Shown: one piece after another, positions 11,981-36,510 of the stretch | Layout: each line of letters opens with the position of its first letter | Position numbering within the stretch: position 1 is the first letter of the stretch | NCBI GenBank assembly: GCA_021298155.1 | Contig: JAJTEN010000024.1 | Coordinates: 1-36,510 of the forward strand | Length of the DNA: 36,510 bases | Source: Sphingobacteriales bacterium | GTDB lineage: Bacteria; Bacteroidota; Bacteroidia; UKL13-3 | Reading direction: 5' to 3' | Program-made: the position numbers and the translations under genes | Notes under the pieces: model-generated | Databases searched by the model: none | What the model was told of the DNA's origin: nothing | The model's input: the letters and a program-made list of their open reading frames with translations, nothing else

Positions 11981-14900
11981 ATGAAAAAAATATACTTTTT
12001 TTTCTACGTATTAGCTTTTCTTTTTTCACCCATTTATCAGGCAAAAGGACAAAGTGTGGTTAATTATGTATTAAGTGCATCTGCCTCAAGCTATACGCCA
12101 ATTTCTGGTGGTGTTCCAATATCCATTTCTGGAAATTTAAATGATGGATATGCGAATAATATTCCAATTGGCTTTGTATTTGTATATAATAGTCAGTCCT
12201 ACACATCCATATCTGTTTCAACAAACGGATTTATTAGTTTGGGGGGTACAATTTCCAATCCAGCCAATGGCACTAATAATTTAAGTACGGGAGGAGGCAC
12301 CATTTCCCCTCGCCCTATCATTGCGCCACTTTGGGATAATTTAAATTTTAATTTAAATAGTGATTTAAGCTATCAAACTATTGGCAATGCACCAAATAGA
12401 ACCTTTATTATGCAATGGCAAAATGCCCGTTGGGGATCATTGGCAATTAACCCGGGTATTTCTTTTCAGGTAAGATTATTTGAAGCCGACAGCAAAATAG
12501 AATTTATTTACAGAAATGAATCTGGAACATTAAACGCGCCAAGCGCTAGTATTGGGATTACCAATAACAATTCAGGAACTAAAAACTTTTTATGCCTTAC
12601 CAGCACAAGCAATAATAGTTCAGATACAAGTACCATTATTGAAACTACCACGCTAAACACGAAACCTAGCAGCGGACAATCCTATACTTTTGCGCCCAAA
12701 TTTCAGGTTCCTACCACACCATCAGTGCTTACCTACACAAATATCACCGGCACACAACTTACACTCAATTGGAATGATAGCAGTAATTCTGAAACTTATT
12801 TTTTGGTTTACATGAGTTCAGATGATATTAACTATAACTTAATTAGTACCATCAATTCAATAAATAGCGCAGGAACGGGCACTAGCTATCAACAAAACTT
12901 TAGTGGCTTGGTTCCAGGAAACAGATATTACTTTAGGGTTTATGCATGTAATGAAGGAAGTTTACCCGTAAATTATACTCAAGGTAATGTTACTACAGCA
13001 GCTGGATTGTTGAGTGGAGTTAAACAAATTTGCCCTAGTTTATGTGATTATACAAGTATTGGTGCTGCATGCAATGACATACGGGCCAAAGGTGTTGATG
13101 GATCCTTAGTCTTAGAATTAATGAACACCTATTCGCCTAGCGTAGAGAGTTATCCACTAATTTTTGGAAATTTACTTAGCAACAATACCAATACAATTAC
13201 CATAAAACCGCATTCTGCTGTTGTTAACCCAATCATATTTACCTCTAATGCTACTAGCACTTTTGCATTTAATCAAACCAATTATTTAACCATAGATGGG
13301 CAAAAAAACGGACAAACAGCTAGCGAATTTATTCAAATTTTTAATAGCAATAGTTCTGGTAGTGCCATTAGTTTCATAAACGGAAGCAGTAATAACACCA
13401 TCACCAATTGTAGAATTTTAGGAACAACCCAAAGTAATAATTCAGGTGTAATAGGTTTTTTAGGGAGCTCAATGACTACTGGAAACAACTACAATTCGAT
13501 TTTTAATAATAGCATAAAGGATAGTATCAATACGCCAATGAACTGTATTTATTCGGGTGGAAATACAAATGCACCTAATTTATACAATAGCATTTACAAC
13601 AATAATATTTACAACTACCACAACGCCTCTAATCCAAGTTATGGGATATTTATTGGATCAGGCAGTAATGCTTGGTTCATTTCTAATAATTCCTTTTACC
13701 AAACGAGCATTAGAAATATTAGTTTTACCTATGCGGGTGCCATGCACTTGGCTAACGGGTCTAATTATACCGTTATTGGCAATTATATTGGAGGATCAGC
13801 TCCCAGCTGCGGTGGTGCAGCCAGTCAATATACTGGCAATGGATTTGTTAATTTGATCAGACTAAACCTTTCTGCCAGCAATACCAATGTTTTATTGGGT
13901 AATTATGTTCAAAACATTAACTTAAATTGGTCGGGTAGTTCAGGGATAAATTCTTTAATTCATTTAATAAATGGTGCTTTCAATATTAGTGGTAATCAAT
14001 TAGGATCTGAAACAGAAAGCCTAAAAATTACTGTAAATAATACAACTGGGACCATTGATTTTGCGGCCATTTATCTGGGAGGTGGCAGCTCTTATGATGA
14101 AACCCAAATAAACTATAATTCGATTTCTGGTTTTAATATTGGATCAAGCGGACTAGGAAATATTCAATTTGCGGGGATTAGAATTGCCAATACAGTACCC
14201 GCATTGCAAATTAATGATAATACCATTGGCAGTGCAACTCAGTCAAATAATATTCACAATCAAAGTAAAGCCTACACTTATGGTATTATAGGTCCCGCTG
14301 GTTCATCACAAAATACCATTACAGGCAATTTAATTGCAAATATGCATGCCAACAATACAGATAGCAATGCAAATGTTTGCGGTATATTCATTAATTCTTC
14401 AGGAAGTTTTACGGTAAGTAGAAATACCATTTTTAAATTATTTTCAAAAAGTGTACTAGCTCAAAACGCCTATAACTCCCCTACTGTGGGCATTTGGCAT
14501 GCCAGTAGTGGTCCAGACCAAATTTGCAGTTTTAACACCATTCATAATCTATATGCCACAAATAATAGCAATCCAAATATGAATAACGTATTTGGAATCA
14601 GGTATATTAATTCTGCAAGTGGAACCAATGTATTAGCAAATAATTTCGTTCATACGTTAGGATCTTCGGCCACAATTGGTGCAACAATATATGGTATTCA
14701 AAATGCGAATCAATTTTGCATTAGCACCAATAACATGATAAGACTTGGTATTGATAGCAATGGTAATAATATGATTGGTAATCACTCATTCATAGGCATA
14801 CATGATTATAATAGCACCAATTCAAATTCGTATTACCATAATTCTATATACATTGGTGGCCAAAATTTAGGTCCGAATAACCTCAATAGCTATGCATTTT

Positions 14901-17900
14901 TTAACTCTGATGTGGCTAGTGGAACTAGAAATATTATAAACAATATTTTTTATAATGCCAGGAGTAATGTAAGCGGCACAGGTAAACAATATGCAATATG
15001 TTTTGCCTTATTTAACATCAATGGTTTAACACTAGACCATAACATATATTATGCACCTAATAGTGGAGGTAATTTTGGCAGAATAAATGTTACAGATTAT
15101 ACCAATATTCATGCTTGGCGTTCTCAAACGTTTATGGACTTTAACACAGGTATTGGCGACCCAAATTTTGTTAATCCGAATGGCAATAGCAATAACTTAT
15201 CGCTGAAGTTACAGAGCAATAGCGCTGCTGAAGGAAGCGGAATGGAGATACCAGAGGTAGAAATAGATTATGAAGGAGAAATTAGGCAAAACAATACGCC
15301 AAATGATATTGGTGCAGACGCCGGAAATTATACTAAAATAGACATTTTTGCTCCATATATAGATTATCAACCGCTAAGCAATACCACAAGCATTAGCAAT
15401 AGGACAGTCGTTGCAAAAATTAAAGATGCAGGAGTAGGTGTAAATACCAATGTAGTGTGGAGACCGAGAATTTATTTTAGAAGAATATTACCAACAGTTA
15501 GTGCATGGCAAACAACCCAGGGAACACAAACCTCAGGAACAAGTAAAGATGGCACTTGGAGCTTTAGCATAGATTACTCACTTACTGGAACGCCTGTTTT
15601 GAACGGTCACAGATATCAATATTATATTGTTGCACAAGATTCTGCAAACCCTACAAATGTATTTTTTAATCCTTTTGCTGGCGGAAATCATGCGACAGTT
15701 AATAGCATGATTACAGCCCCTACAAACGCATACACCTATTCTATTGTTAACGGATTAGCAACTAATTTATTTGTTGGTACCGGACAAACATATACAAATT
15801 TAACCGGACCTAGTGGTTTATTTGCAGCCATTAATAATGGTGTATTAACAGGAAATACCACTGCAACCATTTTAACAAATACAACAGAGCCAGGAACAAT
15901 TGCCTTAAATAATTTGGGTTTAAATGGATTTAACTTACTAATCAAACCAACTAACTCGCCCATTTTGGTTTCAGGCAATGCAAATACTGGCGTCTTGGCT
16001 ATGATTGCCATAGATGGTGCAGAGGGTGTTTGCATAGATGGGGGTAGCAATAGATTACTTACTTTTAGAAATAGTATAGGAACCATACCGAATGCAGGAA
16101 CAGCCTCAACCATAAGAATTAGAAATGGGTACAGAGACACGATCAAAAATTGTATTATTGAAGGTAATTCTGCAAATTCTTCTATTGGAACGGTTAATTT
16201 TGGAACTAGCTCAGTTGCACAATCTTCAGAATCAATTGTACTTAACAACAATCAAATTAGGCCACCTCTGAACGATAGTACAAATGCACCTAATTCGCCA
16301 GTTGTAATAAATTCTGCTGCAGGAAATATTTCAAATTGCCGCATTTCAGCTAATCAAATCATAGATTTTAACACATTTGGGATCTATATTCAGAATGCCG
16401 GTAGGAATATTATTATTGGAGATTCTATGGATGCTGGCAGCGGAAATCATCTGATACAGAGAAGGGCAAGAACCGCCATGCAATATCCCATTATGGTTGG
16501 GTCTGGAAATGGAAATACCATCGGAAATAATAAGATTTATAACCTACATAATATTACGCATTCGGGTGGCATATATGGCATTTATGTATACAATGGAATT
16601 AATAACACATTGATTACAAAAAATTCAATTGGTGGAAGCAATGAAAACAGAGGTGGTGACCCTATGAGAATGAGCAATATTTTTACCGGAATTATAATTA
16701 ATGGGGGAAATTTACAGCATACCAGAATAGAACAAAATAGAATTGGAAATATCTTATTAAATGGCACTTCTGGAACCTTTACAGGAATCTATGGCATTGG
16801 CGGAAAGCTAATGATCAACAATAATCTTATTGGGGTAGATAAAAACAATAGTATAGCCAGCGATAGCATAAGTATTAGTCAGAGTTTTTATGGTATCAGA
16901 TACAATAGCTCAAGTACTGTAAACATTAGCAATAACCAAATTAGAAATTTATATAATAATGGAATTGGTTTTTCTGTTGGTATAAGCATAGACAATGGGA
17001 TTTTTCAAATTAACAACAATGATATCTCACATTTATACACCAAAGCAACTACAAATAATAGCGTAGATTATAGTTGCGTTGGAATCAGAATCTCATCAGC
17101 CAGAACAGATAATAATATAGAAAACAATAACATATCAGATCTACATAATTTGAGTAATTTTATCAGTAGCTCAGTTACTGGAATTGCTGTTATGAATACC
17201 ATCAAAACCAGTATGATTCAGAGAAATAGAATCTATAATTTATTCTCAACTAATACTGGTTTAACCACTTCGAGTCCCATTATTAGAGGAATATTCGTTG
17301 GCTCAAATGGGTCGAGTATATACCATAATAACCAAATAAGTTTGGCTCAAGAAATAGCCAATACACAACCAAGGATAAGAGGAATTGATATTTCAAGTTC
17401 TGGCGGAACCAATCAGTTTTATTATAATACCATTTATATTGGCGGAGTAAACGCGGGTGATAACAATAGCTCTGCATTCTTCAGGAATGTGAGCAGCAGC
17501 ACTGCGGCAGTTGAATTGGTGAATAATATTCTATACAATGAAAGAATGGGAGCTGGAACCCATTATTCCCTAAGTAGTAATTTAAGTGGAAATTTCATTC
17601 AAGATAATAATTTATTTGTGGCAAGAGCAGTTGGATCAATCATTGAATTTCCACTTGGTACCTCACGTACACTAGCTACTTGGAATTCGTTTACAGGAAA
17701 CCCTATTTACAATATATTAAATACCAATACTGAATTGCTTGCAGATTCATTTTTTGAGAATAAAAATATGGGTAATCTTAAAAGTACCTCCTGCAGAATT
17801 GCGGATATTGGTGCTTATGTAAGTGTTCAAAACGACTTCCAAAATCAATTGCGTGGCATTCCATCCGACATCGGTTCAACTGAATTTACACTCAGTAATG

Positions 17901-19675
17901 ACAGACCTAGCATTACGCAACAAGCTATAAATGATACCATTTTCTGCAATGGTGGAAATGCCCATTTTAAAATTTTGGCCAGAGCCAGCGGCATTAAATA
18001 CCAATGGCAATTAAAACAAGGAAGCACCTGGCAAAACCTTACAGATAACTTATCTTATATTGGAACAAATACAGACTCATTGCGTATTATCAATCCAAAC
18101 TCATTATTTAATAACAATCAATATAGATGTGTGGTGAGTGGTGCTTGCAACCCCGCCGACACAAGTATTGCAAGAACCCTAATAGTTGTTAGCAACAATT
18201 ATTGGACAGGTGCCACAGGAACAAACTGGAACAATGCGGCTAATTGGAGTTGTGGAATCCTTCCAACGGCAAGCACAGATGCCATCATAAATAATGTAAG
18301 TAACCTACCTGTTATTAGTGATAGCGTTCAACAGTGTTATAAATTAAGTATTGCAGCAGGTGCAAGTGTTACCCTGAATAATGCTGCTTCTAAACTTGCC
18401 ATATTTGGCCCAATCGAACTCAATGGAAATATCATTCATTCTAATGGAACCATATCCTTTTCAGGAAATGTAACCCAAAACATACCACCTATTGCTTTTC
18501 ATAAATTAGAAATAAATAATAGCAGCGGTGTGCAACTAGGGGGACATATAAGCGTTGCGAATCAACTTCATTTTATTCAGGGAACCATTCAATTAAACCA
18601 GTATCATTTAAGTTTACTGGGTAATAATTCACAAATATTTGGCGCTAATTCTGCTAATAAATTCATAGTTAGTAACGATACAGGTTCATTGATTATCCAA
18701 CACATTGGAACGGGTAATAGATTGGGATCCGTTTTGTTTCCTATTGGTTCGAACCCCAATAGCTATACCCCATTAAGCCTGCTTAATGCAGGCGTAAGCG
18801 ACCACTTTACAGCACGCGTAATGCCACAAGTTTACAACCAATATCAAAGCAATGGCAACCCACTGGGCGCTGCATACACCGCAAATGCAGTAAATAAAAC
18901 CTGGGTATTACATGAGTTAGTTAGCGGAGGAAGTAATGCCCAAGTGCAATTTTCATGGAATATAAACGATGAATTATTTACGTTTAATAGAAGTGCTAGT
19001 TATGTAGCCCAATATTCAGGTACACAATGGACCGGAAATACACCAACTGCAGCAGGCGGTATAAATCCTTATTTTCAAAGTATAAGTGGCGTAACTCAAT
19101 TTACTATTTTTGGGGTAGCAAGTGGTGGACTTTTACCTATCAAATTGTTGTCATTCGAGGCAAATCAAGAAAATCGGTTGGTTCAATTGAATTGGAAAAC
19201 ACTTTCTGAAAAAAATAGTAAAATATTTCAGGTTGAACGATCAACAGATGGCATACTATTTACTAAAATTGGTGAGGTAAAAGCAGCCGGCAATAGCGAA
19301 GTTTTAAAAACCTATGGGTTCACAGATACAGATTTACCACAACATACTAACTGGTACTATCGCCTAAGGTTAGTTGATAGAGATGATACTTATTCATTCT
19401 CAAAAGTCATACAATTACAATCCATTGCATCAAACCAAATACATGTATTCCCAAATCCTTTTTGTAAAGAAATACATATTGATCCAAAAGAACTTGAAAA
19501 CACAGAAGTACTTATTACTTTAAGTCATATAAATGGCAACACAGTTTTACAAAAAAAGATGCTGTTGCAGGGGTTGCAGCAAATAAATGATATTGCACAA
19601 TTGGTTCCGGGGATATACATTTTGAGCATTCAATCTCAAAATTATGCCACCCAAATAAAGCTCATCAAAGAATAG
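11981..19675 (+). CDS. giant beta-helix surface protein with T9SS type A sorting domain
   Basis: A 2564-residue secreted protein rich in Asn, Ser, Gly and Thr. In order there are: a signal peptide (1-24, ending AKGQ); an N-terminal beta domain; an fibronectin-III-like domain at about 243-340 (NWNDSSNSETYFLVY); a first long right-handed beta-helix region at about 346-1110 with repeated NNxIxN/GNxIGG turns; an Ig-like spacer at about 1121-1255; and a second beta-helix region at about 1263-1960. Then come an Ig-like domain (1974-2070), a WTGATGTNWNNAANW module from about 2072, a LPIKLLSFEA linker (2385) and a type A sorting domain with VFPNPF at 2489-2494. The last domain directs export through the type IX system and attachment to the surface. 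The beta-helix parts may bind or cleave polysaccharide, but no catalytic residues can be named. It is convergent with the ABC gene, 6 bases away. Confidence 0.9.
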   Translation: MKKIYFFFYVLAFLFSPIYQAKGQSVVNYVLSASASSYTPISGGVPISISGNLNDGYANNIPIGFVFVYNSQSYTSISVSTNGFISLGGTISNPANGTNNLSTGGGTISPRPIIAPLWDNLNFNLNSDLSYQTIGNAPNRTFIMQWQNARWGSLAINPGISFQVRLFEADSKIEFIYRNESGTLNAPSASIGITNNNSGTKNFLCLTSTSNNSSDTSTIIETTTLNTKPSSGQSYTFAPKFQVPTTPSVLTYTNITGTQLTLNWNDSSNSETYFLVYMSSDDINYNLISTINSINSAGTGTSYQQNFSGLVPGNRYYFRVYACNEGSLPVNYTQGNVTTAAGLLSGVKQICPSLCDYTSIGAACNDIRAKGVDGSLVLELMNTYSPSVESYPLIFGNLLSNNTNTITIKPHSAVVNPIIFTSNATSTFAFNQTNYLTIDGQKNGQTASEFIQIFNSNSSGSAISFINGSSNNTITNCRILGTTQSNNSGVIGFLGSSMTTGNNYNSIFNNSIKDSINTPMNCIYSGGNTNAPNLYNSIYNNNIYNYHNASNPSYGIFIGSGSNAWFISNNSFYQTSIRNISFTYAGAMHLANGSNYTVIGNYIGGSAPSCGGAASQYTGNGFVNLIRLNLSASNTNVLLGNYVQNINLNWSGSSGINSLIHLINGAFNISGNQLGSETESLKITVNNTTGTIDFAAIYLGGGSSYDETQINYNSISGFNIGSSGLGNIQFAGIRIANTVPALQINDNTIGSATQSNNIHNQSKAYTYGIIGPAGSSQNTITGNLIANMHANNTDSNANVCGIFINSSGSFTVSRNTIFKLFSKSVLAQNAYNSPTVGIWHASSGPDQICSFNTIHNLYATNNSNPNMNNVFGIRYINSASGTNVLANNFVHTLGSSATIGATIYGIQNANQFCISTNNMIRLGIDSNGNNMIGNHSFIGIHDYNSTNSNSYYHNSIYIGGQNLGPNNLNSYAFFNSDVASGTRNIINNIFYNARSNVSGTGKQYAICFALFNINGLTLDHNIYYAPNSGGNFGRINVTDYTNIHAWRSQTFMDFNTGIGDPNFVNPNGNSNNLSLKLQSNSAAEGSGMEIPEVEIDYEGEIRQNNTPNDIGADAGNYTKIDIFAPYIDYQPLSNTTSISNRTVVAKIKDAGVGVNTNVVWRPRIYFRRILPTVSAWQTTQGTQTSGTSKDGTWSFSIDYSLTGTPVLNGHRYQYYIVAQDSANPTNVFFNPFAGGNHATVNSMITAPTNAYTYSIVNGLATNLFVGTGQTYTNLTGPSGLFAAINNGVLTGNTTATILTNTTEPGTIALNNLGLNGFNLLIKPTNSPILVSGNANTGVLAMIAIDGAEGVCIDGGSNRLLTFRNSIGTIPNAGTASTIRIRNGYRDTIKNCIIEGNSANSSIGTVNFGTSSVAQSSESIVLNNNQIRPPLNDSTNAPNSPVVINSAAGNISNCRISANQIIDFNTFGIYIQNAGRNIIIGDSMDAGSGNHLIQRRARTAMQYPIMVGSGNGNTIGNNKIYNLHNITHSGGIYGIYVYNGINNTLITKNSIGGSNENRGGDPMRMSNIFTGIIINGGNLQHTRIEQNRIGNILLNGTSGTFTGIYGIGGKLMINNNLIGVDKNNSIASDSISISQSFYGIRYNSSSTVNISNNQIRNLYNNGIGFSVGISIDNGIFQINNNDISHLYTKATTNNSVDYSCVGIRISSARTDNNIENNNISDLHNLSNFISSSVTGIAVMNTIKTSMIQRNRIYNLFSTNTGLTTSSPIIRGIFVGSNGSSIYHNNQISLAQEIANTQPRIRGIDISSSGGTNQFYYNTIYIGGVNAGDNNSSAFFRNVSSSTAAVELVNNILYNERMGAGTHYSLSSNLSGNFIQDNNLFVARAVGSIIEFPLGTSRTLATWNSFTGNPIYNILNTNTELLADSFFENKNMGNLKSTSCRIADIGAYVSVQNDFQNQLRGIPSDIGSTEFTLSNDRPSITQQAINDTIFCNGGNAHFKILARASGIKYQWQLKQGSTWQNLTDNLSYIGTNTDSLRIINPNSLFNNNQYRCVVSGACNPADTSIARTLIVVSNNYWTGATGTNWNNAANWSCGILPTASTDAIINNVSNLPVISDSVQQCYKLSIAAGASVTLNNAASKLAIFGPIELNGNIIHSNGTISFSGNVTQNIPPIAFHKLEINNSSGVQLGGHISVANQLHFIQGTIQLNQYHLSLLGNNSQIFGANSANKFIVSNDTGSLIIQHIGTGNRLGSVLFPIGSNPNSYTPLSLLNAGVSDHFTARVMPQVYNQYQSNGNPLGAAYTANAVNKTWVLHELVSGGSNAQVQFSWNINDELFTFNRSASYVAQYSGTQWTGNTPTAAGGINPYFQSISGVTQFTIFGVASGGLLPIKLLSFEANQENRLVQLNWKTLSEKNSKIFQVERSTDGILFTKIGEVKAAGNSEVLKTYGFTDTDLPQHTNWYYRLRLVDRDDTYSFSKVIQLQSIASNQIHVFPNPFCKEIHIDPKELENTEVLITLSHINGNTVLQKKMLLQGLQQINDIAQLVPGIYILSIQSQNYATQIKLIKE

Positions 19676-33666: not shown

Positions 33667-34926
33667 ATGAATAAAATTCAATTAGATGAAACCATTTGCG
33701 CCTTGGCAACACCTGCCGGAGTTGGTGCTATTGGCGTAATACGGGTGAGTGGCGAGCAATCTATACAAATTGTAAACACTCTCTTTAGGGGTAAAAATTT
33801 GTTGGAAGCACCCACACACGGCTCTCCCTATATTCAACAACGTATTTTGCATGTTTTGGTTCAGACCGGGGCTCGACTTGCGCAGCCTGGTGAGTTTACC
33901 ATGCGTGCCTTTCTCAACAAAAAATTAGACTTATCGCAAGCAGAAGCGGTAGCAGATGTGATTGCCTCTCATTCTGAGATGAGTCACAAAACCGCCATGA
34001 ACCAAATGCGCGGCGGCTTTAGTAGAGAGATTGCGGGTTTAAAAGAACGCCTGGTAAACTTTGCTTCCTTAATTGAATTAGAGCTCGATTTTAGCGAGGA
34101 AGATGTAGAATTTGCCAGCAGACCCGAGTTAAAGGAATTGGTTCAGAACATGGTTCGTTTAATACATGGATTAACAGAAACATTTAAAGTTGGCAATGCC
34201 ATTAAAAACGGCATTCCAACGGTAATTGCCGGTAAGCCCAATGCAGGTAAATCTACGCTATTAAACGCTTTGGTAAAAGAAGACAGGGCCATTGTAAGTG
34301 CCATTGCAGGTACCACCCGCGATACCATTGAAGAGTCGTTTATCATTGATGGCATTCAGTTTAGGTTAATAGATACTGCGGGCATTAGAGAGCATACCAG
34401 TGATAGTATAGAAAGCATTGGCATTGAAAAAACATATGAAAAAATAAGGCAAGCCAGTATTGTTTTATATGTGTTTGATGTGCACGAAACAAGTGCAGCA
34501 GCATTAGAACAGGAGACCGCCGCCTTGGCCCAAATGGATTTAGTGTTGATACCCATTGGCAATAAAGTAGATTTGGTAAATGAGCTAGAAATTAAACAAA
34601 AATTTTCGGGCCGAACCGATATCATTTACCTATCTAGTAAAGAACAAATTGGCATGAATTTACTAGAATCAAGGTTAAAGCAGGTTTTGAATAAAGATCA
34701 AATAAAGAACGATGTTATTATTTCAAACATCAGACATTATCAAGGGCTATTATTGGCGGGAGAATCTTTACAGCAAGTATTAGAAAGCATGGCCATTGGC
34801 CGCAGTGGCGAATTACTGGCATTTGATATCCGCAAAGCCATTTTTCACCTCTCCGAAATTATTGGCGAGGTATCAACAGATGATTTGTTAGAGAATATCT
34901 TTAGTAAGTTCTGTATCGGAAAGTAA
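33667..34926 (+). CDS. mnmE: tRNA modification GTPase MnmE with an internal N-terminal deletion
   Basis: A 419-residue MnmE, about 40 residues short of the usual 455-465. With MnmG it installs 5-carboxymethylaminomethyl-type groups at U34 of some tRNAs. Visible are the N-terminal start DETICALATPAGVGAIGVIRVSG, helical blocks (PGEFTMRAFLNKKLDLSQAEA, ELELDFSEEDVEFA), the GTPase motifs G1 GKPNAGKS (189-196), G2 GTTRD (215-219), G3 DTAG (236-239) and G4 NKVD (299-302), and the catalytic C-terminal FCIGK with Cys416. Between Thr50 and His51 the usual block (GxI...IDEVLV...SYTGED...EISC) of the folate-binding domain is missing, without a frameshift. The rest looks normal and constrained. The loss could be real, or a local assembly or sequencing error. 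Confidence 0.93.
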   Translation: MNKIQLDETICALATPAGVGAIGVIRVSGEQSIQIVNTLFRGKNLLEAPTHGSPYIQQRILHVLVQTGARLAQPGEFTMRAFLNKKLDLSQAEAVADVIASHSEMSHKTAMNQMRGGFSREIAGLKERLVNFASLIELELDFSEEDVEFASRPELKELVQNMVRLIHGLTETFKVGNAIKNGIPTVIAGKPNAGKSTLLNALVKEDRAIVSAIAGTTRDTIEESFIIDGIQFRLIDTAGIREHTSDSIESIGIEKTYEKIRQASIVLYVFDVHETSAAALEQETAALAQMDLVLIPIGNKVDLVNELEIKQKFSGRTDIIYLSSKEQIGMNLLESRLKQVLNKDQIKNDVIISNIRHYQGLLLAGESLQQVLESMAIGRSGELLAFDIRKAIFHLSEIIGEVSTDDLLENIFSKFCIGK

Positions 34927-34927
34927 G

Positions 34928-35518
34928 TTACCTTGGCTGCAGGCTATAAGGAGGTACTTGATAATCGTTATAAATGAAAGCAGGTTTGAAAATAGTAGAT
35001 TGCTCAAATAACAATAAAATAAAACTTTCTGTATCAATCCATTGACCATTTGGTGATTTAATGATTAAGGTGTTGTTTTTCGTTTTTTTTATCGGAGGAT
35101 TTAAATTATTTAACCAATGAAATAATGTTAATGCCTCTGCCCTAAAGTAAAATACATTGTATTCTGTTTTATCATAGCTCAGCTTATAGTGCGTAACAGT
35201 ATTTGGAATTTGTTCAATATAAGATTGATATTCAATACCATATATTAAACCTAATTTATTGTATAAACAGCTAATCGGATAAATTTCTTCAATTAAAATG
35301 GTTTCAATTTCTTGATAATCAAATCCATTAACCTTAATTTGTGGGACGAATTGTTCGATATTTAAACTGCCACCATCTGCATTCTCCGAATTACAATAAA
35401 CAAAATTACTTGTTCTAGATTGTAAATTTCGAAGGGTATGAATCATCTCAAAATCGAAACCTGAACAAGGATAAAATGCGATGCCATTTTTCAGGGCCAT
35501 CGTAAATAAATCTTTCAT
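34928..35518 (-). CDS. hypothetical protein coupled to an AAA+ ATPase
   Basis: A 196-residue protein that I do not recognise. It has a basic/hydrophobic N-terminus without a clear signal peptide, then IAFYPCSGFDFEMIHTLRN (13-31). That begins with a beta strand and ends in a Gly-Phe-Asp turn, reminiscent of a Rossmann-like nucleotide or SAM fold, but this is only a resemblance. Later blocks include LIEEIYPISCLYNK, FYFRAEALTLFHWLNN and LIIKSPNGQWIDTESFILLLF. Its start codon lies 1 base after the stop of the upstream AAA+ ATPase gene on the same strand, so the two are translationally coupled and probably work together. It is convergent with mnmE, whose stop is 1 base away. Confidence 0.7.
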   Translation of the reverse strand: MKDLFTMALKNGIAFYPCSGFDFEMIHTLRNLQSRTSNFVYCNSENADGGSLNIEQFVPQIKVNGFDYQEIETILIEEIYPISCLYNKLGLIYGIEYQSYIEQIPNTVTHYKLSYDKTEYNVFYFRAEALTLFHWLNNLNPPIKKTKNNTLIIKSPNGQWIDTESFILLLFEQSTIFKPAFIYNDYQVPPYSLQPR

Positions 35519-35519
35519 T

Positions 35520-36510
35520 TTATTTAATTTTTAGAAAACCAATTCCTGCATTATCTTTTTTACGAAAACCTAGCTCTTCTTCAATATAACTTAAGAGTAA
35601 TTCAATATTCGAATTGTCTAAATTAAACAAAAGTGAATCAACCAACAACTTACGTTTTATATTCTGAATTTGAGATCCGCTTAATTCATAATCTGAGGCA
35701 ATAATCTTGACCCAATCATCAGGCCATTTAGGAAATAAATCCTGAATGATTTTAACTCGTGTAGCTGAATCAGGTAACTCAAATGCTTTTTTATAAAATA
35801 TACGTCGATCAAATGCATCATCCAAATTATTGATATAATTTGTTGTTGCCATAAAAATGCCTTCAAAATCTTCTAAATATTGCAACAAAATATTCTGCAT
35901 GGAATTCAACATTTGGTCGGATGATGATTCAATTCCTCTGCGTTTATTTAAAATTGCATCGGCTTCATTAAAAAACAAAATTGGCGCTGTATCACAAATC
36001 TTTAAAGCGTCAGAATATTCTTTAAATACCCGTTTAATATTTTTTTCTGACTCACCTACCCACATACTTTTTATAGCAGAAATATCCACCATCAATAAGA
36101 AACGATTGTGTTGTTTTGCAATTTGTTTAACCAATTCTGTTTTTCCAGTTCCGGATAAGCCATAAAACAATATAGTTATTGCCTCTTTCATTTTATGTGA
36201 CTTAAACCTTGCAGCCATTAATTCATATTTTTCAGGCGATAACATCTCAATTATTTTAGTGATATCATGTTGTTGCTTATCATTAAAATATAAATTTTTA
36301 AATTCAATGTCATCAGGTTTAATCAATTGACAAAACTTATGTTTTACTTTTCTATGTTCTACTTTGGTACAACTTTTAGCAAGTAAATCAAGCATTTTTT
36401 CACCATAAGTTATGCAGCTAAAATCAGCCATTTCAGGATTGACAAAACTAATGTAATTATCAATAAACAAGGAACTTCTGTCGTTTTTTATAAGTTGTTT
36501 TATGCTATAT
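35520..36510 (-). CDS. AAA+ family ATPase (5' end cut by the window)
   Basis: At least 330 residues. The first ATG-like reading begins at a TTG near 36470, but the frame stays open to the window edge, giving an N-terminal segment (YSIKQLIKNDRSS) before it. The gene therefore continues off the right end. The AAA+ core shows Walker A GLSGTGKTE, followed by WVGESEKNIKRVFKEY. Walker B is ILFFNEADAIL (the first acidic residue is Asn and the catalytic Glu is kept), sensor-1 is ATTN and the arginine-finger region is DDAFDRRIFYKK. Domain order resembles FtsH/Cdc48-type unfoldase modules. The partner and substrate are unknown. It precedes the hypothetical protein by 1 base. Confidence 0.85.
   Translation of the reverse strand, partial: YSIKQLIKNDRSSLFIDNYISFVNPEMADFSCITYGEKMLDLLAKSCTKVEHRKVKHKFCQLIKPDDIEFKNLYFNDKQQHDITKIIEMLSPEKYELMAARFKSHKMKEAITILFYGLSGTGKTELVKQIAKQHNRFLLMVDISAIKSMWVGESEKNIKRVFKEYSDALKICDTAPILFFNEADAILNKRRGIESSSDQMLNSMQNILLQYLEDFEGIFMATTNYINNLDDAFDRRIFYKKAFELPDSATRVKIIQDLFPKWPDDWVKIIASDYELSGSQIQNIKRKLLVDSLLFNLDNSNIELLLSYIEEELGFRKKDNAGIGFLKIK

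Follow-up and report, generated by a model that had tools for sequence, protein, structure and literature searches.

One of the closest described counterparts of the gene pair considered here is IetAS, a toxin-antitoxin and anti-phage system in which an ATPase, IetA, is coupled to a subtilisin-like protease. SGI1 carries a relative of IetAS in which a protease acts as the toxin and the AAA-ATPase homologue as its antitoxin (PMC5006074). A second point of comparison is provided by defence islands regulated by WYL proteins of the BrxR/CapW type; defence systems are known to be accompanied by WYL regulators (PMC9122601, PMC10924106). In the PMC open-library literature, no title or abstract start describes either the pair itself or the island in which its nearest relatives are found.

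The window, a stretch of 36,510 nt, is a complete contig (G000:C39:1-36510) of a 2.5 Mb genome in 71 contigs, 98.7% complete. The preliminary description had placed an AAA+ ATPase gene and a gene of unknown function at its edge, one base apart, and this is confirmed from the ORFs and their coordinates (Table 1); the interval it gave (35520-36510) spans the ATPase alone, with the partner just outside. On the minus strand, the ATPase stop codon (35520-35522) and the ATG of the partner (35516-35518) flank the single intergenic base, and at its other end the partner stops 1 base away from the stop of a converging mnmE gene (33667-34926, +). Near 33817, the 419-aa product of this mnmE is without about 40 residues, in frame, of the N-terminal part of a 459-aa MnmE from another genome (G027), a gap which may be either real or assembly-made. 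Elsewhere in the window, positions 11981-19675 (+) encode a repeat-rich and, in our reading, probably secreted protein of 2564 aa.

Both ORFs of the pair are genes, because homologues in genome G191 align along them, with 79.6% identity over 329 residues for the ATPase and 60.7% over 196 residues for the partner. Chance ORFs are also excluded by length: when the 1583-bp region was shuffled 1000 times at the mononucleotide level, stop-free stretches reached at most 116 codons, compared with the 196 and 329 observed. Promoter and terminator scans gave no signal exceeding that of shuffled sequence.

Table 1. Features of the gene pair and its surroundings, in window positions.
Feature	Position	Strand	Basis and remarks
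AAA+ ATPase, C-terminal 329 residues of a protein of about 570 aa	35520..36509	-	ORF, PF00004, relatives; 5' part lost at contig end
Walker A GLSGTGKT, residues 117-124 of the 329-aa frame	36138..36161	-	alignment; coordinates by arithmetic
Walker B ILFFNEAD, residues 177-184; Asn at first acidic position, Glu intact	35958..35981	-	alignment; coordinates by arithmetic
Sensor-1-type ATTN, residues 221-224	35838..35849	-	alignment
DRR, residues 234-236, candidate arginine fingers	35802..35810	-	alignment
Single base between ATPase and partner	35519	.	sequence
Partner of 196 aa (YP protein), without a named family	34928..35518	-	ORF
YPCSGFDF motif of the partner, residues 16-23	35450..35473	-	motif common to 7 grouped proteins
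Low-GC block	34928..36510	.	GC 0.292 (remainder of contig 0.361); abuts the 3' end of mnmE

The ATPase matches PF00004 at 84.1 bits (Pfam gathering cut-off 21.2), and by this score, its Walker A motif, Walker B glutamate, sensor 1 and candidate arginine fingers it belongs to the AAA+ proteins. The names "sensor-1" for ATTN and "arginine fingers" for DRR are those customary for AAA proteins and are presumptive here. The asparagine at the first Walker B position, to which attention had been drawn earlier along with the intact glutamate, is indeed present, but it is not special to this protein: 22 of 23 aligned family members carry it, that of the window included and G024 being the exception, so it is a mark of the family. 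In a search of 98 genomes, the frames of the closest kin of the ATPase were about 530-600 aa long, and the window therefore holds about the C-terminal 60% of the protein. Searches for the missing N-terminus elsewhere in the same genome, made with the G051 relative and the 80% identical G191 relative and run without a positive control, gave no match.

The N-terminus can be considered from the G191 relative, whose first 300 residues were modelled with 15 rows at pLDDT 82.7 and pTM 0.80. Nearly all VIA-align rows for this model are winged-helix proteins by title, aligned over residues 14-143; the best is SdaI (Z 8.4), with others at 7.5 or less, and Foldseek gave no match at E<=0.001. A winged-helix domain is thus predicted for residues 14-143 of that relative. 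The AAA module itself matches VCP/CDC48- and Vps4/CdvC-type ATPases, both for the window protein in the NCBIfam search and for the G051 relative. This resemblance could be taken to indicate a chaperone of protein quality control, with its partner as a substrate adaptor and no part in defence, but the partner is rare and patchy (3 of 64 genomes of its own family), and the low GC, divergent alleles and neighbouring WYL and nuclease genes of its relatives described below also argue against such a role, which is already disfavoured and seems very improbable.

Another kind that is presumably related comprises the AAA ATPases found in extracellular contractile injection systems, such as Afp15. Matches to the ATPase were found in 31 Serratia plasmid records, at about 33% along the AAA module in the listed rows. 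Among the matches in the 98 genomes, those provisionally assigned to this kind from their context have shorter frames, of about 440-480 aa. The neighbourhood of the pair showed no recognisable injection-system genes. A viral scan with the G191 ATPase returned 37 stretches, none of them confirmed.

Among named profiles, IetA scores best against the window ATPase (97 bits for PADLOC PDLC02196, 87 bits in NCBIfam), and like IetA it has a coupled partner gene. Beyond this the two differ. The IetA/IteA equivalog cut-off of 510 is missed by the window fragment (87 bits) and by the full-length G191 protein (91.3 bits) alike, and where IetAS has a subtilisin-like protease the window has a partner without a Pfam match, while the gene on the upstream side of the ATPase falls beyond the contig end. 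A further apparent difference is the N-terminal winged-helix region predicted for the G191 relative, the fold comparison covering that protein alone. A toxin-antitoxin-like arrangement on the IetAS pattern, in which the ATPase would restrain a YP toxin that is freed upon ATPase loss or inhibition, would agree with the best-scoring profile, with the antitoxin ATPase and protease toxin of the SGI1 relative, and with the tight coupling of the two genes. The missed cut-off and a partner that is no protease by Pfam weigh against it, as does the frequent absence of the partner next to relatives of the ATPase; the ATPase is thus not an obligate antitoxin, and we regard this arrangement as unlikely. 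The pair may nevertheless resemble IetAS in its way of working, with the ATPase controlling a small protein coupled to it. PADLOC found no complete known system among the proteins tested, only single matches (WYL models, RTasRmuC, a weak Cas4 and HEC-02B).

The partner, here called the YP protein, was said in the preliminary description to have no recognised family, and searches of Pfam, NCBIfam, PADLOC and PHROGs, all without a family match, bear this out. Seven proteins were grouped as YP, all of which have the motif [YWF]P.S[GC].DF near residue 16, although three of the seven (G045b, G045c and G035) were first noticed through the motif itself and the G035 protein is only weakly supported by pairwise comparison, with E 2e-4 when six proteins were compared. 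The family is sparsely distributed. The window partner was matched in 3 of 98 genomes, its own and one weak match included. A seven-row profile, built from all seven proteins so that these are its hits by construction, matched 3 of the 64 genomes of its own family (G000, G035 and G045) and 3 of 395 genomes of the class, one marginally, while a two-row profile matched 2 of 395 genomes of the class. A three-row profile, run on 395 genomes of the phylum, matched 3, of which two were marginal. Marginal matches (G062, G606, G723 and G102; E 2e-4 to 1e-3, 20-22 bits) were not counted as family. A scan of genome contigs gave three loci, of which two are G191:C6 and G045:C101. At L004 (from the motif scan), L051 and L052 there is no YPxSGxDF protein at the matched site.

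A structural model of the partner from four rows (pLDDT 77.3, pTM 0.80) has helices alternating with strands, with YPxSGxDF in the loop after the first strand. Its best VIA-align rows are Trm1 (2ytz, Z 6.6) and TPMT (2bzg, Z 5.6; 2gb4, Z 5.4), other alpha/beta folds coming next at Z 4.4. The order of alpha and beta elements and the position of the YPxSGxDF loop are like those of Class I SAM-dependent methyltransferases such as these, but the Z scores are under 8 and the classical glycine-rich motif is lacking. Structure prediction and remote homology search thus yield an alpha/beta model, but with a best Z, 6.6, below the level that would exceed a common arrangement. Foldseek with the model gave no match at E<=0.001, and a sequence search of the PDB found nothing credible. 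Outside the cellular genomes, tblastn of plasmids and phages with the partner gave no match at E<=1, and a broader viral scan returned 23 stretches with none confirmed. A phage origin was considered and rejected, the sole viral match (L037) being a 34-residue motif in a 501-aa protein, judged to be chance; that protein is, in our reading, part of a phage structural region.

Whether the two genes are found together in other genomes, on which the preliminary description had made its coupling depend, has a one-sided answer. ATPase and partner recur in the same order and with the same 1-bp gap in G191:C6 (L038) and in JABMMZ010000065.1 (L049), both Bacteroidota. The ATPase is 80% identical to that of the window in both cases, and the partner 61% (G191) and 55% (L049). 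Most of the ATPase relatives read have no YP neighbour, however: those of G051, G040, G054 and G045:C247, which are 46-53% identical, have other neighbours and no YP in the stretches read, the G054 and G045:C247 genes being on contigs of only 3-4 kb. In G035 a YP gene lies upstream of the ATPase with one gene between them, and the same stretch has WYL and DUF2779 genes. In G045:C101 (L042, 1-6650) there are three YP paralogues together with a WYL gene, a PD-(D/E)XK nuclease and an 'IGEA' protein, with no ATPase on the contig. The suggestion that the two products work together is thus supported by the recurring pair, its order and its gap, within the limit of about one independent instance besides the window, because the G191 and L049 islands are closely similar (92-98% nt identity per gene for eight of ten genes).

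These distributions also bear on the simplest alternative, that the genes share an operon and no function, YP being chance cargo behind a promiscuous AAA+ gene. The neighbours of the ATPase family are diverse (an ADP-ribosylglycohydrolase, a 3'-5' exonuclease, a HAD-domain protein and others), of the three pairs, two come from islands that closely resemble each other, and the three G045 paralogues are beside a WYL gene on a 6.65-kb contig without an ATPase. Against this, the window and G191 ATPases have diverged to a dS of about 1.4 and have different adjoining genes, yet order and 1-bp gap are kept, and a pairing by chance appears rather improbable.

The pair in G191 and L049 is part of a low-GC block of 10.7 kb common to the two. 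Its blastn pieces match at 93.8% and 95.6%, with a weaker one (77.5%) falling in the gene for a protein called 'ILIGEAPP' here, and the match ends at L049:1151 and 11921, with flanks (0.8 to 4 kb) unmatched; the two are therefore seen as one island lineage at two sites. The ten genes are a 147-aa gene, ATPase-2, WYL, a 113-117-aa gene, 'ILIGEAPP', DUF2779, a 109/162-aa gene, ATPase-1, YP and RmuC. Between the islands, amino acid identity is 91-99% for ATPase-1, ATPase-2, WYL, DUF2779, RmuC and the 147-aa gene. The two small genes (113-117-aa and 109/162-aa) reach 85-88%, but YP just 65% (78% nt) and 'ILIGEAPP' 56% (71% nt). Synonymous divergence follows the same pattern, with dS 0.55 for YP and 0.67 for 'ILIGEAPP' but 0.08-0.19 for ATPase-1, ATPase-2, RmuC, WYL and DUF2779. 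Identity within YP is uneven, at 98-100% in a central block but 63-85% to either side of it, with abrupt edges. The high dS and sharp edges indicate an exchange of divergent alleles, beyond fast substitution alone, and this comparison of one pair of islands is the strongest hint that YP may be the variable part.

PADLOC matches in the island are to WYL models and, at 415 bits, to the DRT-linked model RTasRmuC, the latter by RmuC. Pfam found neither a reverse transcriptase nor a peptidase among the eight of ten island genes scanned (all except the 109/162-aa gene and full-length ATPase-1). DUF2779 is not itself a PD-(D/E)XK family: PMC3985635 assigns it to the RNase H-like superfamily as a presumed 3'-5' exonuclease, with members that have a PD-(D/E)XK-like DUF83. 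For the 'ILIGEAPP' protein, a PDB sequence search with its alignment found nothing credible. Its motifs look uracil-glycosylase-like to us, a resemblance that is unsupported by Pfam, NCBIfam, PADLOC and PHROGs. Near the G191 island, a 138-aa ORF (L038:1341-1757) may, in our reading, be the beginning of a methylase gene of a type III restriction-modification system.

The WYL gene of this island is not an isolated case. Across 19 genomes with 22 ATPase-family loci, 11 of 33 WYL genes are within 8 kb of such a locus where 0.23 would be expected, assuming uniform placement and rounded genome sizes; at 2, 4 and 6 kb the counts are 7, 9 and 10, with 0.07, 0.12 and 0.17 expected. The 22 loci comprise the window, the two G191 genes and 19 others judged to encode proteins of 530-600 aa or fragments of such proteins, and the count leaves out FtsH-like matches, the shorter-frame kind (G059, G078, G069 and G088 among them, at 95-101 bits), weaker matches, the G057 fragment and the broken frame in G001. 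Viewed from the ATPase, 12 of the 22 loci have a WYL gene within 8 kb and 10 do not, some of these being on short contigs. BLAST clustering found a WYL homologue in 16 of 27 ATPase-bearing stretches, which include some related ones (L038/L049, L039/L041 and L082/L083). Plasmids have a similar arrangement: 77 records match the ATPase at E<=1e-20, and of the 20 listed, six were read, five of which (Prevotella, Aliarcobacter, two Segatella and Chryseobacterium) have an annotated WYL gene, the sixth being an Arcobacter stretch cut by the record end and without one. Several of the six also have DUF262, 3'-5' exonuclease, PD-(D/E)XK, SLOG or HAD genes.

Other neighbours of the ATPase family are more scattered. 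DUF2779 is not specially tied to it, as just 2 of 12 PF11074 matches share a contig with an ATPase (G191:C6 and G035:C32); in addition, BLAST clustering puts a partial gene of DUF2779 type next to the ATPase of G048. A 3'-5' exonuclease family recurs nearby in L046, L054, L079, L082 and L084 and is so annotated in three plasmids. In two genomes of different families the ATPase family adjoins an ADP-ribosylglycohydrolase and a DSP-type phosphatase gene (L060, G035:C2, with neighbours assigned by Pfam; L053, G094:C177, by clustering).

The earlier statement that nothing else supports defence is true of the window alone. Among its relatives, WYL, DUF2779, PD-(D/E)XK and DUF262 genes are found beside the ATPase family, and because the family is near WYL genes far above chance, support for defence does exist. 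The locus is like WYL-regulated defence islands of the BrxR/CapW type in that its ATPase family adjoins WYL genes in many genomes, in nuclease-bearing, low-GC and patchy islands, but unlike them in that no WYL gene is seen in the genome of the window. PF13280 and PF11074 have no matches there, although both matched other genomes in the same search, and the G191 WYL protein used as query also found none. With neither WYL, DUF2779 nor the ATPase N-terminus found in this genome, we infer its island rather than see it.

Base composition sets the pair apart from the rest of its contig: none of 334 contig windows of equal size is as low in GC, and the G191 and L049 islands are similarly low (0.285-0.289). 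Low GC and patchy distribution together point to horizontal acquisition next to mnmE. On that side the blastn homology between the window and G191 ends within the partner gene, and no RmuC follows, so the right border of the pair differs from that of its relatives. On the other, the pair would be the 3' end of an island, the missing flank presumably resembling those of the relatives.

The explanation we favour, to which we give about an even chance, is that the pair consists of the ATPase and a variable specificity or effector protein of an uncharacterised, WYL-associated conflict island, directed against phages and other mobile DNA, that was horizontally acquired in Bacteroidota. By homology the ATPase has a winged-helix N-terminus and a single AAA+ module of VPS4/CDC48/IetA type, and it would most likely assemble into a ring driven by ATP. 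This ring would interact physically with the small, translationally coupled partner, remodelling, loading or restraining it. YP, a fast-changing alpha/beta protein, would most likely be the variable specificity or effector part, in what may be an anti-phage function; related islands also have exonucleases and a WYL regulator. A bolder and distinctly less probable version is that the islands represent an immune system of Bacteroidota under WYL control that has so far gone undescribed. Winged-helix AAA+ ATPases, DUF2779 exonuclease and RmuC would be its constant chassis, the YPxSGxDF and 'ILIGEAPP' proteins would be two exchangeable, variable cassettes that set recognition or attack, and the pair in the window would be its core.

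The two divergent genes in otherwise near-alike islands point at the parts that may be under arms-race pressure. If the favoured explanation is right, the conflict repertoire of bacteria would gain a module that is powered by an ATPase and has an exchangeable variable subunit, and further islands of this sort in Bacteroidota and Campylobacterota could be sought through the WYL adjacency of the winged-helix AAA+ family.
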